7,525 nt of DNA from Deltaproteobacteria bacterium RIFOXYA12_FULL_61_11. Its GTDB lineage: Bacteria; Bdellovibrionota_F; JAHFAK01; YA12-FULL-61-11. The translations under genes were made by a program, and so were the position numbers. The stretch covers positions 1-7,525 of the forward strand of contig MGSU01000062.1 in NCBI GenBank assembly GCA_001799195.1. Direction: 5' to 3'. Positions 1 through 7,525 of the stretch are shown one piece after another. The notes under the pieces are model-generated. The model searched no databases, had not been told where the DNA came from, and saw only the letters and a program-made list of their open reading frames with translations. Each line of letters starts with the position of its first letter. The first letter of the stretch is position 1.

Positions 1-1175
1 CGCAACGGCTGTCTATCGGCTTCGGCTGCAGCTCGCAGTTCCAGGAGGGCCTTGCCCAGGACCGTGGAACGGCGTAACGGAGGTCCCGCCGCCTCGCCTT
101 CGTAGTCGACCTCACTCCTTGCGAGCACCAAGGCCGCAGGGAGGTTGGTCCCCCCAGGCTCTCGCCAGATCGGCGTGAAGCGCGTCGCTTGCAACCAAGC
201 CGAACCGTCGTAACGCACTTCGAGACCGATCGTCCGGGGCAAGGCCAGTCGCAGCGAGTAGAGTCGTCCCACGACCGAACCGTCCGGCAGAGTCTCCTGC
301 AAAGGAGCATAGCCAGGGTGCTCACCTTTTCCCGGCAAGGGGGAGAGCGGGAAGCAGATCGGAGCAGCGGGACAGCCGTCGAAGCGGAGATGCATGCAGC
401 CCTCGGTGCGGACCTCCCCGGGTCGCAGGAGCGGACGGATCGAGACTTCCAGATAACCGGCTTCCACGGGGAGCTCGGCCCGTGCCGAAGCTCCCCATTG
501 ACCATACCAACCGCTCCCCGGGGGTATTTCCGAGAAGGGTCTGAGGAGGTCCTCGCGTTCGAAGGCTTGAGCCGGGAACCGTTCGCCGACCAAGACGGCG
601 AGGATCCTGCCGAGGGGTCCGTCCAGGGCGGTCTCGAGATGCAGGGGCTTCCGCTGCAGGACGCCGTCGACGGGTTGGAGTTCCTCGAGCACGAGCCCGT
701 GGCCCATCGACCGTGGCCGAACCTGACCGAGGGTCTGTTCTATGAGCCGGCGCCTACTCTCTTCTTCCCGTATTCCCCGGAGCAGGCATCCGGACAACGG
801 CTCCTCCGAGAACAACATCGTCCAACGGGTCCCGAGCGCTGTCCGGAAACGCAATCTCCCGTCGCGCAACCGGCCCAGGGGCCGGGACAACCAGGCTCGG
901 CGGCCCGAGGGAACATCGGCAAGGCGAAGTTCACCCCCGCCTTCGGCGCACGTGAGGAGATAGTCCCCGTAGAGCAGAGGCCGGAAAGCCAGGGCCATAC
1001 CAACAGGCAGGTCGAGAGGTTCGAGGTCGTCCTCCTCCTCGAACAGGCTCACGGTCCGACCGGTCGAAAGCTCCATGACCGCGATCGGCGCTACCGGCCG
1101 CGGGTGAGCACCGGAGGCAAAAAGGGCAGGACCGCAGACCAGTCCCAGGAGCAGCACGTACCGAGGCGCTTTCAT
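1..1175 (-). CDS. Secreted protein of unknown function (3' partial)
   Basis: Reading left from ATG 1175-1173, the frame has no stop through 391 codons to the window edge; I checked every codon. The start overlaps the previous stop as ATGA (1175-1172), and TGAGG at 1187-1183 gives a Shine-Dalgarno site 7 nt upstream. The N-terminus is a good Sec signal peptide: MKAPRY, then a hydrophobic core (VLLLGLVCGPALFA), with cleavage likely after SGA at residue 23. The mature part appears to be mixed beta-strand and loop and I do not recognise a domain. An acidic patch (EEEDD, 46-50) lies near the N-terminus, and a cysteine-rich stretch at 260-274 (C260, C268, C274) could form disulfides. Further cysteines lie at 76 and 130. 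Its position as the last visible gene suggests an extracytoplasmic accessory of the same pathway. The C-terminus lies beyond the left edge, so total length is unknown. Confidence 0.8.
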   Translation of the reverse strand, partial: MKAPRYVLLLGLVCGPALFASGAHPRPVAPIAVMELSTGRTVSLFEEEDDLEPLDLPVGMALAFRPLLYGDYLLTCAEGGGELRLADVPSGRRAWLSRPLGRLRDGRLRFRTALGTRWTMLFSEEPLSGCLLRGIREEESRRRLIEQTLGQVRPRSMGHGLVLEELQPVDGVLQRKPLHLETALDGPLGRILAVLVGERFPAQAFEREDLLRPFSEIPPGSGWYGQWGASARAELPVEAGYLEVSIRPLLRPGEVRTEGCMHLRFDGCPAAPICFPLSPLPGKGEHPGYAPLQETLPDGSVVGRLYSLRLALPRTIGLEVRYDGSAWLQATRFTPIWREPGGTNLPAALVLARSEVDYEGEAAGPPLRRSTVLGKALLELRAAAEADRQPL

Positions 1176-2173
1176 CGAGGTGCCTCAGGTGGTTTGACCG
1201 GGTTCTGGGGGTGCAAGGGTTCGGCCGGTCCTGCCGCGAGCGTCCTCAATGCCTCCGCGAATGGTCTTCGGAACAGGGTGTCTTCGATCAAGCGAGAACG
1301 CACCGTCGGACTCATCTCCACGTGGAGGAAACGTCCGCTTCGCGCTCTGATGGCCCGTCCCTGGACATTGGTGAGGCCCCCGAGCTTGGGTTGGCCTGGG
1401 CCATAGACGGCCACGACGAGTTTTTCGGGCTGCCAGGACGCCAGCATGGCCGGCGCCATGATTTGGCCATCCGGCCGGCCGTCGCTGAGCAGGACGTCAA
1501 GGCCGCGATTGGCCGCCTCGAAGCCGTGCAACTGCACGAAAAGGCTACGGGGTGCTGCTTCGAGGATGCCCACGGTCACGGCTTGATAGAGCGAAGCATC
1601 GTTGTGCGCCACATCTGCCGGATGCTCCGCGTCGTTGGGCGTTTCGCCCTTCCTGCTTTTGTACCGGTGCAGGGTGTTCAGCATGAGCACGCGCGCTTCC
1701 AGGTCGCGGAACAACTCCCGGCCGAGCCGGCCGGTCTTGAGGTCGAAGAAGCTGTGCGGGGCCTGGACAATGACGTCCGTGGCTTGCCCGCAACGCCAGA
1801 GGTACACGCCCCGACCCTGGTGAATGCCAGGCACTTCGCGCAGCAACCAGAAGGACGTGGTCCCATCTTGATGGAGCTGCAGCTCCATGCCGAGACCGCG
1901 CAGCATACTCTCTGCCTCAGCGGCGACCGCACGATCGCAACTCGGGGCCGCGAGGGTGAGCTTCCTGGCCACCTCGCGCAGGGTTTGCCACATCGGCTCG
2001 GGCGGAGAATGATAGAAGACGGTCGCGCCCCCGTTTCGCCTGGCGGCTTCGAGCTTCTCCCCCAGGGTCGCGGGGGTTTTCTTCGTGGCCTCGTTCTTCG
2101 GTGCGCACCTTGCGCTACCTGTCAGGACAAGAAAGGCCACCACCATGCAGGCACAGAGAGTTCTCATCATCAT
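1172..2173 (-). CDS. Secreted putative metal-dependent amidohydrolase/carboxypeptidase-like protein (possible poly-gamma-glutamate hydrolase)
   Basis: The 333-residue frame opens with three consecutive ATGs; the third (2167) lies 6 nt after GAGAGG and is the likely start, giving 331 residues. Numbering here is from the first Met. A short Sec signal peptide follows (MRTLCACMVVAFLVLTGSA), with cleavage likely after A21; Cys23 is not in a convincing lipobox. The body has motifs expected of a zinc hydrolase: QAPHSFFD (H140, D144), LNTLHRYKS (H169, R170), DVAHND (H190), VQLHGFE (H216), then LTNVQGR (N269, R273) and FLHVEMSPTVR (E286). First His plus acid, a later His and a C-terminal Glu are typical of the carboxypeptidase/N-formylglutamate amidohydrolase/phage gamma-PGA hydrolase group, but I cannot assign the exact family. 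The proline-rich tail (311-333) looks disordered. It follows the 866-residue gene by 4 nt. A role in trimming or releasing a polymer made by the PgsC-like complex is inference. Confidence 0.85.
   Translation of the reverse strand: MMMRTLCACMVVAFLVLTGSARCAPKNEATKKTPATLGEKLEAARRNGGATVFYHSPPEPMWQTLREVARKLTLAAPSCDRAVAAEAESMLRGLGMELQLHQDGTTSFWLLREVPGIHQGRGVYLWRCGQATDVIVQAPHSFFDLKTGRLGRELFRDLEARVLMLNTLHRYKSRKGETPNDAEHPADVAHNDASLYQAVTVGILEAAPRSLFVQLHGFEAANRGLDVLLSDGRPDGQIMAPAMLASWQPEKLVVAVYGPGQPKLGGLTNVQGRAIRARSGRFLHVEMSPTVRSRLIEDTLFRRPFAEALRTLAAGPAEPLHPQNPVKPPEAPR
1183..1187 (-). promoter_or_regulatory. Shine-Dalgarno site (TGAGG) inside the end of the hydrolase-like gene
   Basis: TGAGG is embedded in the last codons of the hydrolase-like gene and lies 7 nt before the ATG at 1175, whose first bases form an ATGA overlap with that gene's stop. 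It supports the chosen start of the last gene and coupled translation. Confidence 0.6.
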
Positions 2174-2179
2174 CCTCTC
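2174..2179 (-). promoter_or_regulatory. Shine-Dalgarno site (GAGAGG) before a triple ATG
   Basis: GAGAGG touches the first of three tandem ATG codons (2173, 2170, 2167). Only the third has a normal spacing (6 nt), so translation of the hydrolase-like gene probably starts at 2167. The site overlaps the TGA stop of the 866-residue gene (2180-2178), which implies coupled translation. Confidence 0.65.
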
Positions 2180-4778
2180 AGCGATCGAATCGGCGCAGTC
2201 TGATCGCGTCGCTCGCGACCGTCCGGCCGGGTCGGTAGAACACCCGCAACCAGACCTCTTGGTCCCCTCGGTTGCGCACCACCAACCGGTGCCACCCCGG
2301 GGTGAGCTCGGTCTTCACGGGATAGGTGGCCAGTTCGGCGACGAGAGGCGCGGTGAAGGGATGATAACGGGGGAGGAAACAGCGCGGCCTAGCCTGGTCG
2401 AGGGCGAGCTCGAGACGTTCCACGGGCGAGGTGAAGGCCTCGAGCACCGATTGGCGTTTGCGCCTCGGCTTGCCCCCGTCGATGGTCACCTCGAGTTTGA
2501 CCGTCCCGGTCGCGGCATAGGCGGCGAGGTTGAGGAAGAAGGGTTCTCTCCCCAGCACGTGGAAGCCGAAACGCCGGAGCTCACCCGGCCCTATCCTGAC
2601 GACCTCGAAGGCCCGCATGATACCGCCTCGGCAGAGCGTGCCCACCTCGCCCGGTTCGAGTTTGACGTAGAGCAAGGGGTCACCGCCGAGAAAGGTATGC
2701 CGGAAGGTCAAGCGCCCCTCTCGCGGCCGGAGCCCCTCCAGGAGCAGGGTTTCGTTGCGCAACCGAGGTCTGCGGCGCTCCAAGGGGGTGCCGTCCATCA
2801 CCAGCTCGTACTCGCCGCCGAGGCTGACCTCGGCCGGCAACGAGAAGATCAGGGACAGTTGCCCGCGGCGACCCGAACGACTGTCCGGCGGCAGGAGCAC
2901 CCGCCGGGCCTGTTCCCGCTGCAACCGGCACCACACTCCACCGAGCACCTTGCCCCGGGTTTCCTCTGCCGTTAAGGGCATGAGCAGGATCTGTTCCTGC
3001 CCTTGGTCGAGGATGGTCCCCGAGGCCCAGTCACCCTCGGTCTCGTGTCCCGTACCCTCGCCCACGGTCTCTCCATCGGGCAGCTCGAGACGGACTTGGG
3101 CCAGCAACGTAGCAAGCCGGTTCTGCTCCGTGATGAGGGGCAGGTCCCGAGGACTCATCAACTGCCAATGGTCCGAACGCTGGCGCGGATAGCGCCACAC
3201 CCGGCCGAGCAGATCCCGGGGGTAGACCTCTTCGTCCGCGGGATGGAGCAAGGTCTCGGAGAAACAGCGGACCGCCAGGATCCGCTCGGCCTCGAGTTCG
3301 ATCCAGCGCGCTCCGAGGGGCGAGCGCACGTAGAGGGTGTGCGGTTCTGAGACCCAGCTCTGGTCGTTCTCCGGCAACAACGCCGTCAAGGTTTCGAACC
3401 TGCTGAGTCTGCTCACGAGCGTACGTTCGACCGCTTGCAGCTTCCGGCCCTGATCGTCGAGGAAACCGAGGCGCAGGACGAAGGGCTGGGGTTGTTCCCC
3501 CGGTTGCAGGTATTCGCGAACGTCCAGACGATACATGGCGTTGAAATTACTTCCCAACGTGGAGAAACCGAGGGTGCCGCCCGGTCCTGGCACTACGAGA
3601 TGGGTCTCTAACCGAGCGAGCTCGGGGGTCAGGTAATGCACCCCGGGATCGACCTGGTCCGGGATGAGATTACTGTAACCGACGGGCTCGAGGCGATCCT
3701 CTCGTACGCTGAACTGGACGAAGACCTCCAGGGGTTCTGGATTGTGCAGTACGACGCTGCGCACCCCGCCCGGCAACTTCACCCACTCGAGTGTGCCGGG
3801 GCGCAACTCCAGCGGTCCTGCCGGCAGATCCCGTTCTTCTCCGGCACGATGCGCCAGGGAACTCACTTCCAGCACGACCGGGCGTTCCGGACTGAGCAAG
3901 GCCAAACCGAGTTCCCCTTCCCCCCGGACATTGACCACCTTGCTGCGCCCCGGGGGAATGGCCACGGTCACATCCTCGCTCTGCCCACCCTGGTCGTAGA
4001 GACCGGAAAAATAGATACGCTTGGTAGGAACGACCGTATTCTGGTCCGTGAAGGCTTCGATCCTGCCCCATTTGGTCGGGAACAGCTTGCGTTCCTCGTC
4101 GAAGGACAGCTCGTCGAGGGTCTGCAACCCCATTTTGCGGGCCAACTCTTGCCGTTCGTCGTTCCGGCTCTGCCGGAGCATCTCTTCCCGCTCCGGGAGG
4201 GTGCGTTCCTCGAGGCGATGGATGCGGAGCAGGACTGGGAAGGAGGACTCGAGGAGAGTCACCCTGATCCTGCCCCCCCGCGGGAAGTAGCCGAGCACCG
4301 GGAGCGACGATACGCGCGCATCGGTCAACTCGCCCTCTCCGGGTTTGAGGAACGCATTCTCGATGTGTCCCCCCACTTCCAGGGGAATCTTGCTCTGCCT
4401 CGTGCGGATGTAGAAGGTCTGTTCGTGCGTGACGGTATTGGACTGATCGATCAGCTCGGTTCTGAGCGAGTAATCGACCACACTGTAGGGATTCAGAGCC
4501 TGGTTCGGGGGCAGGAAGCAATGCGAGACCAGGAAGAACTTCCGGTCATCGATGGAGACGTTGAAGTACAAACGTTGGTCCGGTTCGAGCATGTAGAGCA
4601 GCATGGTTGCGGCCTGCTCCTTCTTGTACTCGAACTCGCCTCCGCTGCGACGATCACCTGTCAGGAGCATCAAGGCCAGGACCCCGGCCACGAGACCGCC
4701 GCCCACCAGGACCGAGACGAAACGAGAAACACTCGCCGTTCGCCACAGTTCCTCGATGTCTCCATACCCTCTGTACAT
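2178..4778 (-). CDS. Large membrane-anchored, beta-rich extracytoplasmic protein of unknown family
   Basis: I do not recognise the family of this 866-residue protein. It starts with a short cytoplasmic stretch, then one hydrophobic segment (about 20-40, SVLVGGGLVAGVLALMLL) followed by GDRR. No signal peptidase site is evident, so it is probably a signal anchor with the body outside the cytoplasm. Most of the rest reads as successive beta-strand segments with many Pro-Gly turns. One exception is a charged, probably helical stretch at about 186-232 rich in Glu and Arg. The C-terminal 45 residues (TPGWHRLVVRNRGDQEVWLR) look like a beta-sandwich edge. Cysteines are few. The ATG at 4778 is supported by GAGG five bases upstream, overlapping the stop of the PgsC-like gene; the gap is 7 nt. 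This placement suggests a periplasmic partner of the PgsC-like protein, such as a scaffold or polymer-handling subunit. No PgsA/CapA-type motif is apparent. Confidence 0.85.
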   Translation of the reverse strand: MYRGYGDIEELWRTASVSRFVSVLVGGGLVAGVLALMLLTGDRRSGGEFEYKKEQAATMLLYMLEPDQRLYFNVSIDDRKFFLVSHCFLPPNQALNPYSVVDYSLRTELIDQSNTVTHEQTFYIRTRQSKIPLEVGGHIENAFLKPGEGELTDARVSSLPVLGYFPRGGRIRVTLLESSFPVLLRIHRLEERTLPEREEMLRQSRNDERQELARKMGLQTLDELSFDEERKLFPTKWGRIEAFTDQNTVVPTKRIYFSGLYDQGGQSEDVTVAIPPGRSKVVNVRGEGELGLALLSPERPVVLEVSSLAHRAGEERDLPAGPLELRPGTLEWVKLPGGVRSVVLHNPEPLEVFVQFSVREDRLEPVGYSNLIPDQVDPGVHYLTPELARLETHLVVPGPGGTLGFSTLGSNFNAMYRLDVREYLQPGEQPQPFVLRLGFLDDQGRKLQAVERTLVSRLSRFETLTALLPENDQSWVSEPHTLYVRSPLGARWIELEAERILAVRCFSETLLHPADEEVYPRDLLGRVWRYPRQRSDHWQLMSPRDLPLITEQNRLATLLAQVRLELPDGETVGEGTGHETEGDWASGTILDQGQEQILLMPLTAEETRGKVLGGVWCRLQREQARRVLLPPDSRSGRRGQLSLIFSLPAEVSLGGEYELVMDGTPLERRRPRLRNETLLLEGLRPREGRLTFRHTFLGGDPLLYVKLEPGEVGTLCRGGIMRAFEVVRIGPGELRRFGFHVLGREPFFLNLAAYAATGTVKLEVTIDGGKPRRKRQSVLEAFTSPVERLELALDQARPRCFLPRYHPFTAPLVAELATYPVKTELTPGWHRLVVRNRGDQEVWLRVFYRPGRTVASDAIRLRRFDR

Positions 4779-4783
4779 TCCGA

Positions 4784-4788
4784 CCTCA
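4784..4788 (-). promoter_or_regulatory. Shine-Dalgarno site (TGAGG) of the 866-residue gene, overlapping the upstream stop
   Basis: On the minus strand TGAGG includes the TGA stop of the PgsC-like gene, and its GAGG lies 5 nt before the ATG at 4778. It fixes the start of the 866-residue gene and suggests translational coupling. Confidence 0.7.
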
Positions 4789-7525
4789 GAAACGCACGCA
4801 ACTGTCTTGGAACACGGGATGCTTCAACGTGAATTCGGAGGCCAGACGGTGCAGGTCAAAAGCCCCCTCCCCGACCGTGACTGCGCAACGGGCCCAATCG
4901 TCCTCGGCCACGAGGTGGATGCGCGTGGCGCGCAGGTCGACCACGGCCCGGATCGAGACCTTGCGCTCGAGGAGAGTTTCGAGCGCCCGCAGGTTGGAAC
5001 TGACCGCGAAATCCTCGAGGTAGGTCTTGAGCATGCGGAGGGAACTCAGGTGAGCTCCCCGGCCGGCCCGGCGGGGGTTGCGGCCCGGTTGGTTGAGCAC
5101 CTCGACCAAGCTGGAGAGGTAGCCGCTCTCCTCGGGAATCCGCAGATAGCGGAAGAGCAATAACATCCGCTCCAGCCGGGAACCTTCCATGATCGAACGG
5201 CGCAGCTCGTCCCCGATCCACAGGATGGCGAAATGTCCGGGCAGGAGGTTCTTGACCAGGTTGCCGATGGGGTTGCTCTCGCCGTGCAGCCCATAATCTT
5301 GATGGGAGCCGCGGTAATGGGTCGCTTGGGTCCCCTCGGCGCGGATCAGCTCGAGGAGCTGTCGACCCATGGTCGGCACGTTGTTCTCGTCAAGGGCTTC
5401 CTCGCCGAGGCTGAGCACCACCGGGGACTGCATCCGCCAGCCCTGACCGCCTCGGACCAGGGCGACCAGGAGGTCATCGGCCTCACCATACTCCTGCAGG
5501 AAGTGCCGCACAACCACGTGAGCCAGAGAGCGCGGGGCGTTCTCGCGCAGGATGTCGCTGCGCCCCCAGGGATCGGCCATAGCAGAACTCCCTGGAATAA
5601 ATAAGGCTCTCGCCCTGAAACTCTCAAACCACCTCGCTGCTAAACCGAGAGTCCCGCTCTCGGCCAGAGGTCGGGGTGGAATGAGCAACCAGGGCTTCGC
5701 CTCGCCGAGTCGGAAGACATAGGTGCCCCAGCCTTTGTTCTGCTCGTCGTCGCGGAGTTCCCGCAGAATGATGAAGGTATCGTCGTTTTTCTCGTCGCTG
5801 AACCAGATGAACTGGTACCCGAGGAAGTAGGCCGAGAGTTGCAGGGAGCGGAGCTGTTCTTCGAAGCGGGGGGTGCCGAGCAAGGGCCCGAGGGAGGGGA
5901 TGCGGTGCAGCAATTCGGTGCGGAAGTACAACAGTTCGTGCCATTGCGGTACGACATACCTGCCAGTGCCGGCGCGATGGATGAAGTACTTCTGCTCGAG
6001 GACCCAACGTTCGATCAGACCGGTCACGGTCTCGAAGTGGGCGAGGCGTTTGAGGTCTCCGGTGAACTTGTAGCGCGGTGATACCTCGGCCACCGTACTA
6101 CGCGGCAGGTACAACACGCTGAAGTTGGCCTCCGAGGACGTCCACTGGTAGAGCCCCGGTTCAGGGTTGTGCCACGAGAACTCGAGGTTCGGAAAATCGC
6201 CGCGCAAGCGATCGAGGTAGACATTGCGGGGGAGATTGTAGCGCACGTGCCAGGCCGAGCGTTCCTGCTCGGGCACCCGTACCTGGATCACGTCGTGCCC
6301 CCGCAGAGCGCTGTAGACGAGGTTGAACAGGTCGTCGCCGCTCTTGGCGGCATCGGCCCAGGCTTCCCCCCGCGTGGGTTCGTCGATCCCGGCGATGAAG
6401 ACGGCTCTGGCCTGGGTCGACTTGAGCAGGACATAGGCTCCTTCCAGGGCCAGGGGTTCCCGCAGGGGATGAACCACCTGCAGCACCGGACCGGGAGCGC
6501 CCGGTCGGAGCAGGTACACCCCCAACCCACTGCGCTGCATCAGGGAAGCGAGGTCCTCGTGGATCACCAAGTACGAGCCGAGTTCGGGATCGACATGGTG
6601 CCGGCAGGCCAAGGTACGTTCCCCCGGTATACGGGTTTCCCGTTCGATCATCCGACAGATGGCCAAACCATCGTCCATCTCCAGGGCACGGGTCAGGGCC
6701 CTGCGGTACCGCGTGGACACGGTCGGCCGCAGATGTTGCTCGCGCGCGAACCCTTGGGTCAGGACGAAGGCCTTGGAGAGGATGAGGTCTTTGAAGAGGA
6801 AACCCGGGCTGCTCTCATGCTGGGGGTTGGCGGCGGTCAGCGTTCGCGCCGATACCTCGTTCCAGACTTCCTCACCGGTGTGCAAGACGAAGCCGAGCAG
6901 ACTGCCGAGGGTGAAACCGTAGGCCGCGGTGAGCATGGTCGGCATCAGCACCCTCGGCACGCTGTGCTTGTCCAAGATCTTGATCGCCAGCAACGCCGGT
7001 AGGAGATACCCGAACCCGAACAGATCGTTCAGCTTCATCCTGGGCAGTTCGGGGAAGAAGATCGCGGTGACCCACTTGATGACGAAGGTCAGGAAGAAGA
7101 TCAGGGTGATACGCCGGCCACCCCCGACATTGATGGAGCGCAACCCGGGTAGGCGCAGGCACAGTTTGAAGGCGACGAGGGCCAGGAAGACTTCGCCGAG
7201 GGTGCTGAGGACCTTCTCGGGGATGAAGAACACGGCCGAGATCAGGGCCGGCACCATGATGCCGTTGAAATCCCAGCCATAACGCATGTTGAAGCGGGAG
7301 GCCAACATGGCCGTGGCCACGATGATCACGTAGATCTTCGGCGCGGCCAGGAAGTTGACGACGAGGTCCTCGTAGGTGAGTTGGAACTTGCCCAGATTGA
7401 GGTTGGTGGTCGGGATGAGGACATAGGCCAGGACGAGGTAGGTCAGTCCGGTCACCGTGGACTTTTCGAAGAGCCCTCTGGCAAGGCCGCTCTTCCAAAA
7501 AGAATTTGCCAGTAAGGGGACCAGG
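4786..7525 (-). CDS. PgsC/CapC-like polytopic membrane protein with long C-terminal region holding two degenerate hydrolase-like domains (5' partial)
   Basis: The frame ends at TGA 4788-4786 and has no stop up to the right edge. The GTG at 7455 has no Shine-Dalgarno site and is probably internal. Residues below count from that GTG. The codons upstream of it read LVPLLANSFWKSGL, which resembles the C-terminal IVPGLIANTIQKQGL element of Bacillus PgsC as I remember it, so a first PgsC-like unit is cut by the window. A second unit follows at about 35-192: hydrophobic segments near 35-51, 64-79, 83-101, 115-134, 146-161 and 168-191, a GIMVPAL motif at 65-71, GGGRR at 111-115 and LLPALLA at 151-157. 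PgsC/CapC proteins are membrane subunits of poly-gamma-glutamate capsule synthases and are usually only about 150 residues long. The remaining 690 or so residues are soluble. They contain two diverged copies (about 265-460 and 525-765) of the domain encoded by the gene at 1172-2173. The last 120 residues are unassigned. PgsC membership is fairly secure; the function of the soluble part is inferred. Confidence 0.85.
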   Translation of the reverse strand, partial: LVPLLANSFWKSGLARGLFEKSTVTGLTYLVLAYVLIPTTNLNLGKFQLTYEDLVVNFLAAPKIYVIIVATAMLASRFNMRYGWDFNGIMVPALISAVFFIPEKVLSTLGEVFLALVAFKLCLRLPGLRSINVGGGRRITLIFFLTFVIKWVTAIFFPELPRMKLNDLFGFGYLLPALLAIKILDKHSVPRVLMPTMLTAAYGFTLGSLLGFVLHTGEEVWNEVSARTLTAANPQHESSPGFLFKDLILSKAFVLTQGFAREQHLRPTVSTRYRRALTRALEMDDGLAICRMIERETRIPGERTLACRHHVDPELGSYLVIHEDLASLMQRSGLGVYLLRPGAPGPVLQVVHPLREPLALEGAYVLLKSTQARAVFIAGIDEPTRGEAWADAAKSGDDLFNLVYSALRGHDVIQVRVPEQERSAWHVRYNLPRNVYLDRLRGDFPNLEFSWHNPEPGLYQWTSSEANFSVLYLPRSTVAEVSPRYKFTGDLKRLAHFETVTGLIERWVLEQKYFIHRAGTGRYVVPQWHELLYFRTELLHRIPSLGPLLGTPRFEEQLRSLQLSAYFLGYQFIWFSDEKNDDTFIILRELRDDEQNKGWGTYVFRLGEAKPWLLIPPRPLAESGTLGLAARWFESFRARALFIPGSSAMADPWGRSDILRENAPRSLAHVVVRHFLQEYGEADDLLVALVRGGQGWRMQSPVVLSLGEEALDENNVPTMGRQLLELIRAEGTQATHYRGSHQDYGLHGESNPIGNLVKNLLPGHFAILWIGDELRRSIMEGSRLERMLLLFRYLRIPEESGYLSSLVEVLNQPGRNPRRAGRGAHLSSLRMLKTYLEDFAVSSNLRALETLLERKVSIRAVVDLRATRIHLVAEDDWARCAVTVGEGAFDLHRLASEFTLKHPVFQDSCVRF

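Follow-up and report, generated by a model that had tools for sequence, protein, structure and literature searches.

Two hydrolase-like domains of a PgsC-like protein are related to the neighbouring secreted hydrolase

The PgsC-like protein encoded in the window (the whole stretch of DNA analysed, the first 7525 bases of the 15,480-base contig C62, locus L011) contains two hydrolase-like domains that are related to the neighbouring hydrolase. The three domains share a common origin, with significant family profiles and clean controls. As the initial annotation had proposed, homology, residue loss and conservation support one apparently active secreted enzyme alongside two pseudoenzyme copies that are tethered to the membrane. 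In the favoured explanation, with a probability of roughly 55%, the PgsC-like protein would serve double-membraned bacteria as the membrane subunit of a polyglutamate-type polymer synthase. The two pseudo-hydrolase domains would lie in the periplasm and, instead of cutting the nascent anionic polymer, would bind it and pass it towards the outer envelope; the separate secreted hydrolase would trim the polymer or release it. The common origin, the loss of zinc and catalytic residues, the conserved replacements and the clustering with the hydrolase and a PgsB-type ligase were computed. From the positive-inside rule we infer a periplasmic location; gamma-linked glutamate would be the polymer, and binding and direction of transport are equally conditional.

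Gene layout and the PgsC-like protein

All cluster genes in the window are encoded on the minus strand. The features are as follows.

3..1175, minus strand: next cluster protein, N-terminal 391 aa, cut by the contig end (position only)
1172..2173, minus strand: stand-alone secreted hydrolase, 333 aa (invariant columns in 54 relatives and fold match)
2178..4778, minus strand: 866-aa protein with one N-terminal hydrophobic segment (conserved neighbour, same place in most clusters)
4789..5133, minus strand: C-terminal tail that follows copy 2, with helices and three strands (AlphaFold2 model)
5146..5943, minus strand: pseudo-hydrolase copy 2, P0001 residues 528-793 (profile P, VIA-align and residue columns)
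5200..5202, minus strand: Arg retained in copy 2, at the hydrolase R292 column, equivalent to PghL Arg171 (column alignment, PMC6506827)
5452..5454, minus strand: Arg at zinc-ligand column H216, copy 2 (residue columns)
6028..6714, minus strand: pseudo-hydrolase copy 1, P0001 residues 271-499 (profile P and secondary-structure order)
6277..6279, minus strand: Arg at zinc-ligand column H216, copy 1 (residue columns)
6850..7524, minus strand: second CapC domain (membrane part) of the PgsC-like protein, PF14102; the first CapC lies outside the window

The PgsC-like gene (7947-4786, minus strand, 1053 aa) starts outside the window. A short run of N (L011 about 7525-7545) lies inside it beyond the window edge, and the translation contains six X. 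Downstream are the 866-aa protein, the 333-aa hydrolase, and the start of another large protein. Pfam searches found no family for the 866-aa protein or for the protein at 3..1175. The latter occupies the same cluster place as L064:15814-20901 and L109:7069-11526, and by synteny it would be the large cluster protein of 1500-1900 aa. Judged from the sequences at those two loci, that protein looks like repeats followed by a putative outer-membrane barrel, a reading for which no Pfam family was found in support. Directly upstream of the PgsC-like gene is a CHASE2-PAS protein with a histidine-kinase-like C-terminus (L011:7947-10649, minus strand), and in Nitratifractor a kinase-like gene (L047:10260-10985) is also located just upstream; these genes suggest signal input into the cluster. 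Further upstream on the same strand are a response-regulator/GAF/GGDEF protein (L011:11007-12413, minus strand) and a GAF-MshEN-T2SSE ATPase (L011:12675-15299, minus strand).

The full 1053-aa protein matched PF14102 (Caps_synth_CapC) with 115.7 bits against a gathering score of 27 (E=2.2e-33), in two stretches that represent two CapC domains. The NCBIfam model for PgsC, TIGR04011, gave 53.1 bits (E=4e-14), below the equivalog cut-off of 96.45. By these sequence scores, the protein is related to PgsC and is not the equivalog. A PgsB-type ligase was found in three genomes (G000, G297, and G397), with TIGR04012 scores of 198-213 bits (E 1e-58 or better), under the equivalog cut-off of 222.7. This divergent PgsB lies inside the cluster in G297, G397, and further loci. 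In the window genome it is on a separate small contig, C266, so the window's cluster was probably split by assembly. PgsB has a long N-terminal extension (about 600 aa, no Pfam match) at L063:4018-6381, L053:7349-11470, and L110:14194-18390; in CSSED10-310 this extension is a separate gene.

The protein thus resembles PgsC/CapC (PF14102, TIGR04011) in the CapC domains of its membrane part and in the PgsB-type ligase of the same cluster or genome. It differs in having a tandem CapC pair and a 650-aa extension bearing the two pseudo-hydrolase domains. PgsA of the poly-gamma-glutamate synthase was not seen among the cluster genes examined here. The topology was read from hydropathy and charge (positive-inside rule, 54 proteins), with membrane spans counted partly by eye; it puts both the N-terminus and the long C-terminal half on the non-cytoplasmic side, in the same predicted compartment as the exported hydrolase. 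The 7TM-transglutaminases are membrane proteins fused to an inactive transglutaminase. They would be similar in their amide-ligase neighbourhood and in having a multi-helix membrane protein that bears a catalytically dead domain, whereas both the enzyme fold and the ligase would be different from those described here.

Common origin and fold of the three domains

The initial annotation had aligned three segments by their motif order, and every quoted motif was located at its position. Two-sequence BLASTP of the window proteins gave E=0.005 for copy 2 and the hydrolase, and nothing useful for copy 1. At this E value, the window by itself is no proof of resemblance, and relatives were therefore sought for family profiles. 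The hydrolase profile comprised 61 stand-alone hydrolases, 60 of them from other genomes, and was free of fused copies. Its match to the window's PgsC-like protein had E=3.4e-8, and of the 80 related proteins of this type it recognised 60 at E<1e-3; among 396 shuffled or reversed controls, none matched at E<=10. Within the window protein, copy 2 alone reached 5e-6. Copy 1 alone gave 2.9, which is not significant, and its identification derives from the family profile. The hydrolase alignment leaves the C-terminal third of copy 1 uncovered.

Profile comparison among the three segments, the check proposed at the outset, was significant for all pairs: P=7e-19 for copy 1 and the hydrolase, P=4.6e-20 for copy 2 and the hydrolase, and P=5e-30 for the two copies. 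Control profiles of three unrelated cluster proteins or domains gave P values of 0.36-0.74. Fourteen sphingomonad-type proteins missed by the HMM showed profile matches to both copies (2.8e-12 and 1.2e-17).

The AlphaFold2 models, built on family alignments, were confident (mean pLDDT 86.5 for the hydrolase and 83.8 for the C-terminal half of the PgsC-like protein). Their helices and strands run in identical order in all three segments (two helices, two strand pairs, then helix, strand, helix, strand, etc.). Structure-library searches with VIA-align matched the hydrolase model to the N-formylglutamate amidohydrolase-type proteins 2odf (Z 14.5, rmsd 3.0 over 183) and 2q7s (Z 12.6), and to the gamma-PGA hydrolases 5onj (Z 11.9, rmsd 4.1 over 177), 3a9l (11.8), and 21dc (11.8). 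The model of the C-terminal half matched 2q7s (Z 10.3), 3a9l and 21dc (8.6), and 5onj (8.1); these matches came through copy 2, and none was resolved separately for copy 1. The top fold match of both models is thus N-formylglutamate amidohydrolase (PF05013; 2odf, 2q7s), at low identity (12-16%). Profile comparison of the hydrolase with a handful of sequences of this family gave P 0.0096, which is not convincing. The PGA-hydrolase fold is not specific, since it is common to other zinc carboxypeptidase-like enzymes.

Active-site columns of the hydrolase and the fused copies

As a single sequence, the window's hydrolase found nothing in Pfam, NCBIfam, or PDB. Searching PDB sequences with a profile yielded no true relative, and a search of phages with the window's hydrolase gave no match. 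PF05908 (PGA hydrolase) had no match at E<=0.1 in any of 54 hydrolase relatives, nor did a Pfam search of the window hydrolase and its relatives find PF05013. Ten columns are invariant in the 54 relatives: H140, D144, R170, D187, Q214, H216, N269, H284, E286, and R292. The stand-alone hydrolase therefore keeps the zinc-hydrolase residues, with H140, D144, and H216 as putative zinc ligands, E286 as the predicted distal Glu, and R292 as the likely PGA-anchoring Arg. PghL binds its zinc through His41, Glu46, and His102; its Arg171, located six residues past Glu165, anchors a gamma-PGA carboxylate, and R171S abolishes cleavage (PMC6506827). The spacing of E286 and R292 is also six. Profile alignment with 17 PghP-type proteins was collinear over the motifs, with borderline P values (3.8e-4 local, 8.8e-6 global). 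The PghL/PghP family (PF05908; 5onj, 3a9l, 21dc) is alike in fold, with Z about 12 for the stand-alone enzyme and 8-9 for copy 2, and in the residue order H, acidic, H, N, E, R. It differs in the first motif, HxxxxE instead of HxxxD, and the stand-alone hydrolase has an additional N-terminal region of about 120 residues. The fused copies, unlike PghL/PghP, are without both zinc histidines and without the catalytic Glu.

Several hydrolase homologues have other contexts. Two adjacent secreted homologues in G093 (L012:7768-9105 and 9223-12420, minus strand) have intact motifs and carry sorting tails for type IX secretion; they are not linked to PgsC, and the second bears a long repeat-like region. 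At L106:12160-16902 and L100:6501-8348, a longer frame ends with the hydrolase domain, which may be fused there to the 866-aa-type protein.

Residues of the fused copies were counted in 54 sequences. The H140 column is Ala in copy 1 (31/54) and Arg in copy 2 (46/54); the H216 column is Arg in both (48/54 and 53/54); and the E286 column of copy 2 is Trp (51/54). The D144 column remains acidic, with Glu in 44 copy-1 and 46 copy-2 sequences. D187 is mostly kept (37/54 in copy 1, 49/54 in copy 2), and R292 is kept in 52/54 copy-2 sequences. Copy 1 retains fewer binding-site residues than copy 2, which has its own conserved motif, AHPxANxDGSAD. The window's own copies match the family replacements, except for a His at column 140 in copy 1. 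This His was considered as a sign of a live site and ruled out, as only 2/54 relatives share it.

The earlier view that the catalytic residues are mostly lost holds for the H140, H216, and E286 columns, but not for D144, which is still Glu in both copies. The replacement of H216 by R393 in copy 1 was correct; in copy 2, however, the residue is also Arg, at 668, rather than V667. The change of E286 to W746 in copy 2 proved to be family-wide. Retention of H140 in copy 1 alone is true of the window, but it is an exception in the family, where Ala is the rule.

With the zinc histidines and the Glu replaced, catalysis in the fused copies should be gone. The conserved acidic column, the anchoring Arg, and the new positive charges are as expected where the site still meets an anionic chain. 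The copies might instead be enzymes of another chemistry, with metal-independent transfer or a new metal site formed by the acidic column, Asp187, and AHPxANxDGSAD. Conservation of column 144 and D187 in the copies, and the motif of copy 2, are consistent with this; it is nevertheless quite improbable, as almost every copy has other residues in place of the two zinc histidines and the distal catalytic Glu. That the copies are functionless, decaying relics of a fused hydrolase is barely credible: the catalytic residues are gone, but the copies persist in many phyla with conserved replacements, 60/80 being recognised directly and 14 of sphingomonad type by profile. The initial annotation had offered either polymer binding or holding of the hydrolase. 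The conserved Arg, Arg, and Trp together with the substrate-anchoring Arg of copy 2 favour polymer binding over mere tethering.

Distribution and proposed function

The window genome's phylum has just two members within the searched genome set. Hydrolase homologues exist in other genomes. A first scan of genome contigs with the window protein alone found no relatives, and no plasmid record matched a relative. A CapC search identified two further genomes in which a long frame encodes tandem CapC domains; the gene order in both is that of the window. An alignment of the three long PgsC-like proteins then retrieved 80 loci, one genome per species, and 115 relatives in total. The loci span gamma-, beta-, and alpha-proteobacteria, Desulfobacterota, Campylobacterota, and Planctomycetota, and include Nitrospirae, Verrucomicrobia, Riflebacteria, candidate division CSSED10-310, and others. 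The recurring order is the PgsC-like protein, an 800-870-aa protein, the hydrolase, and a 1500-1900-aa protein. In the assemblies at L090:3751-7130 and L116:9986-13253, the PgsC-like gene is broken by a stop or frameshift in its C-terminal half.

A stand-alone hydrolase is present in 63/80 loci, on the same strand in 61 of these 63; it was not seen in 17/80, most of which end early. This co-occurrence speaks for the chief rival explanation, in which the secreted hydrolase is recruited or regulated by the pseudo-domains: these would pair at the membrane, either with the active enzyme or among themselves, and so gate trimming. Pairing is plausible because the domains are homologous. However, L087 and L138 have the fused copies and no hydrolase in the 8-10 kb downstream, although a distant gene is possible, and the conserved changes are in active-site columns, not on a surface. 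Recruitment is rated as an unlikely alternative.

A tree was calculated from 61 enzymes, 54 copy-1 domains, and 54 copy-2 domains. The fused copies all form one clade (support 1.0) and the enzymes all cluster together (0.94); the separation of copy 1 and copy 2 is weakly resolved. The fused copies, as one clade apart from the enzymes, are thus ancient, selected pseudoenzyme domains. The suggested domain duplication stands as far as the tandem copies are concerned, but they did not arise by recent duplication of the neighbouring hydrolase gene. The simplest reading is a single fusion and a single tandem duplication early, before the family spread. CSSED10-310 proteins are shorter, with one recognisable copy.

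Matches of the hydrolase and copy 2 to solved gamma-PGA hydrolases weigh in favour of the polymer-binding synthase explanation. The sub-equivalog PgsB, the absence of a PGA-hydrolase Pfam match, and the borderline PghP profile match weigh against it. The cluster might make another carboxylate-rich amide polymer, or modify a peptide, instead of producing gamma-polyglutamate. Both PgsB and PgsC diverge from their equivalogs, and the nearest folds include N-formylglutamate amidohydrolase and succinylglutamate desuccinylase; on the other hand, both core synthase subunits co-occur with a PGA-hydrolase-like enzyme, and this alternative is considered rather improbable. Within the polymer-binding explanation, it is tentatively suggested, at a little under even odds, that the pseudoenzyme pair on PgsC conveys the growing polymer through the periplasm to the large protein as an outer-membrane exporter, and that this would be a widespread diderm machine.

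PgsB/PgsC homologues are widespread, being found in 250 species (PMC4497714), and PGA systems occur in most phyla (PMC5542703). In the open-access literature searched, neither the tandem CapC nor the pseudo-hydrolase fusion nor the cluster was found to be mentioned. No description was found there of how polyglutamate would cross two membranes, and the cluster offers a concrete, testable parts list. Its carriers include bacteria that can be cultured, among them Marinobacter, Desulfobacter, and Erythrobacter. The family also provides a clear case in which a degrading enzyme has become a likely polymer-handling domain, with its zinc histidines swapped for arginines.
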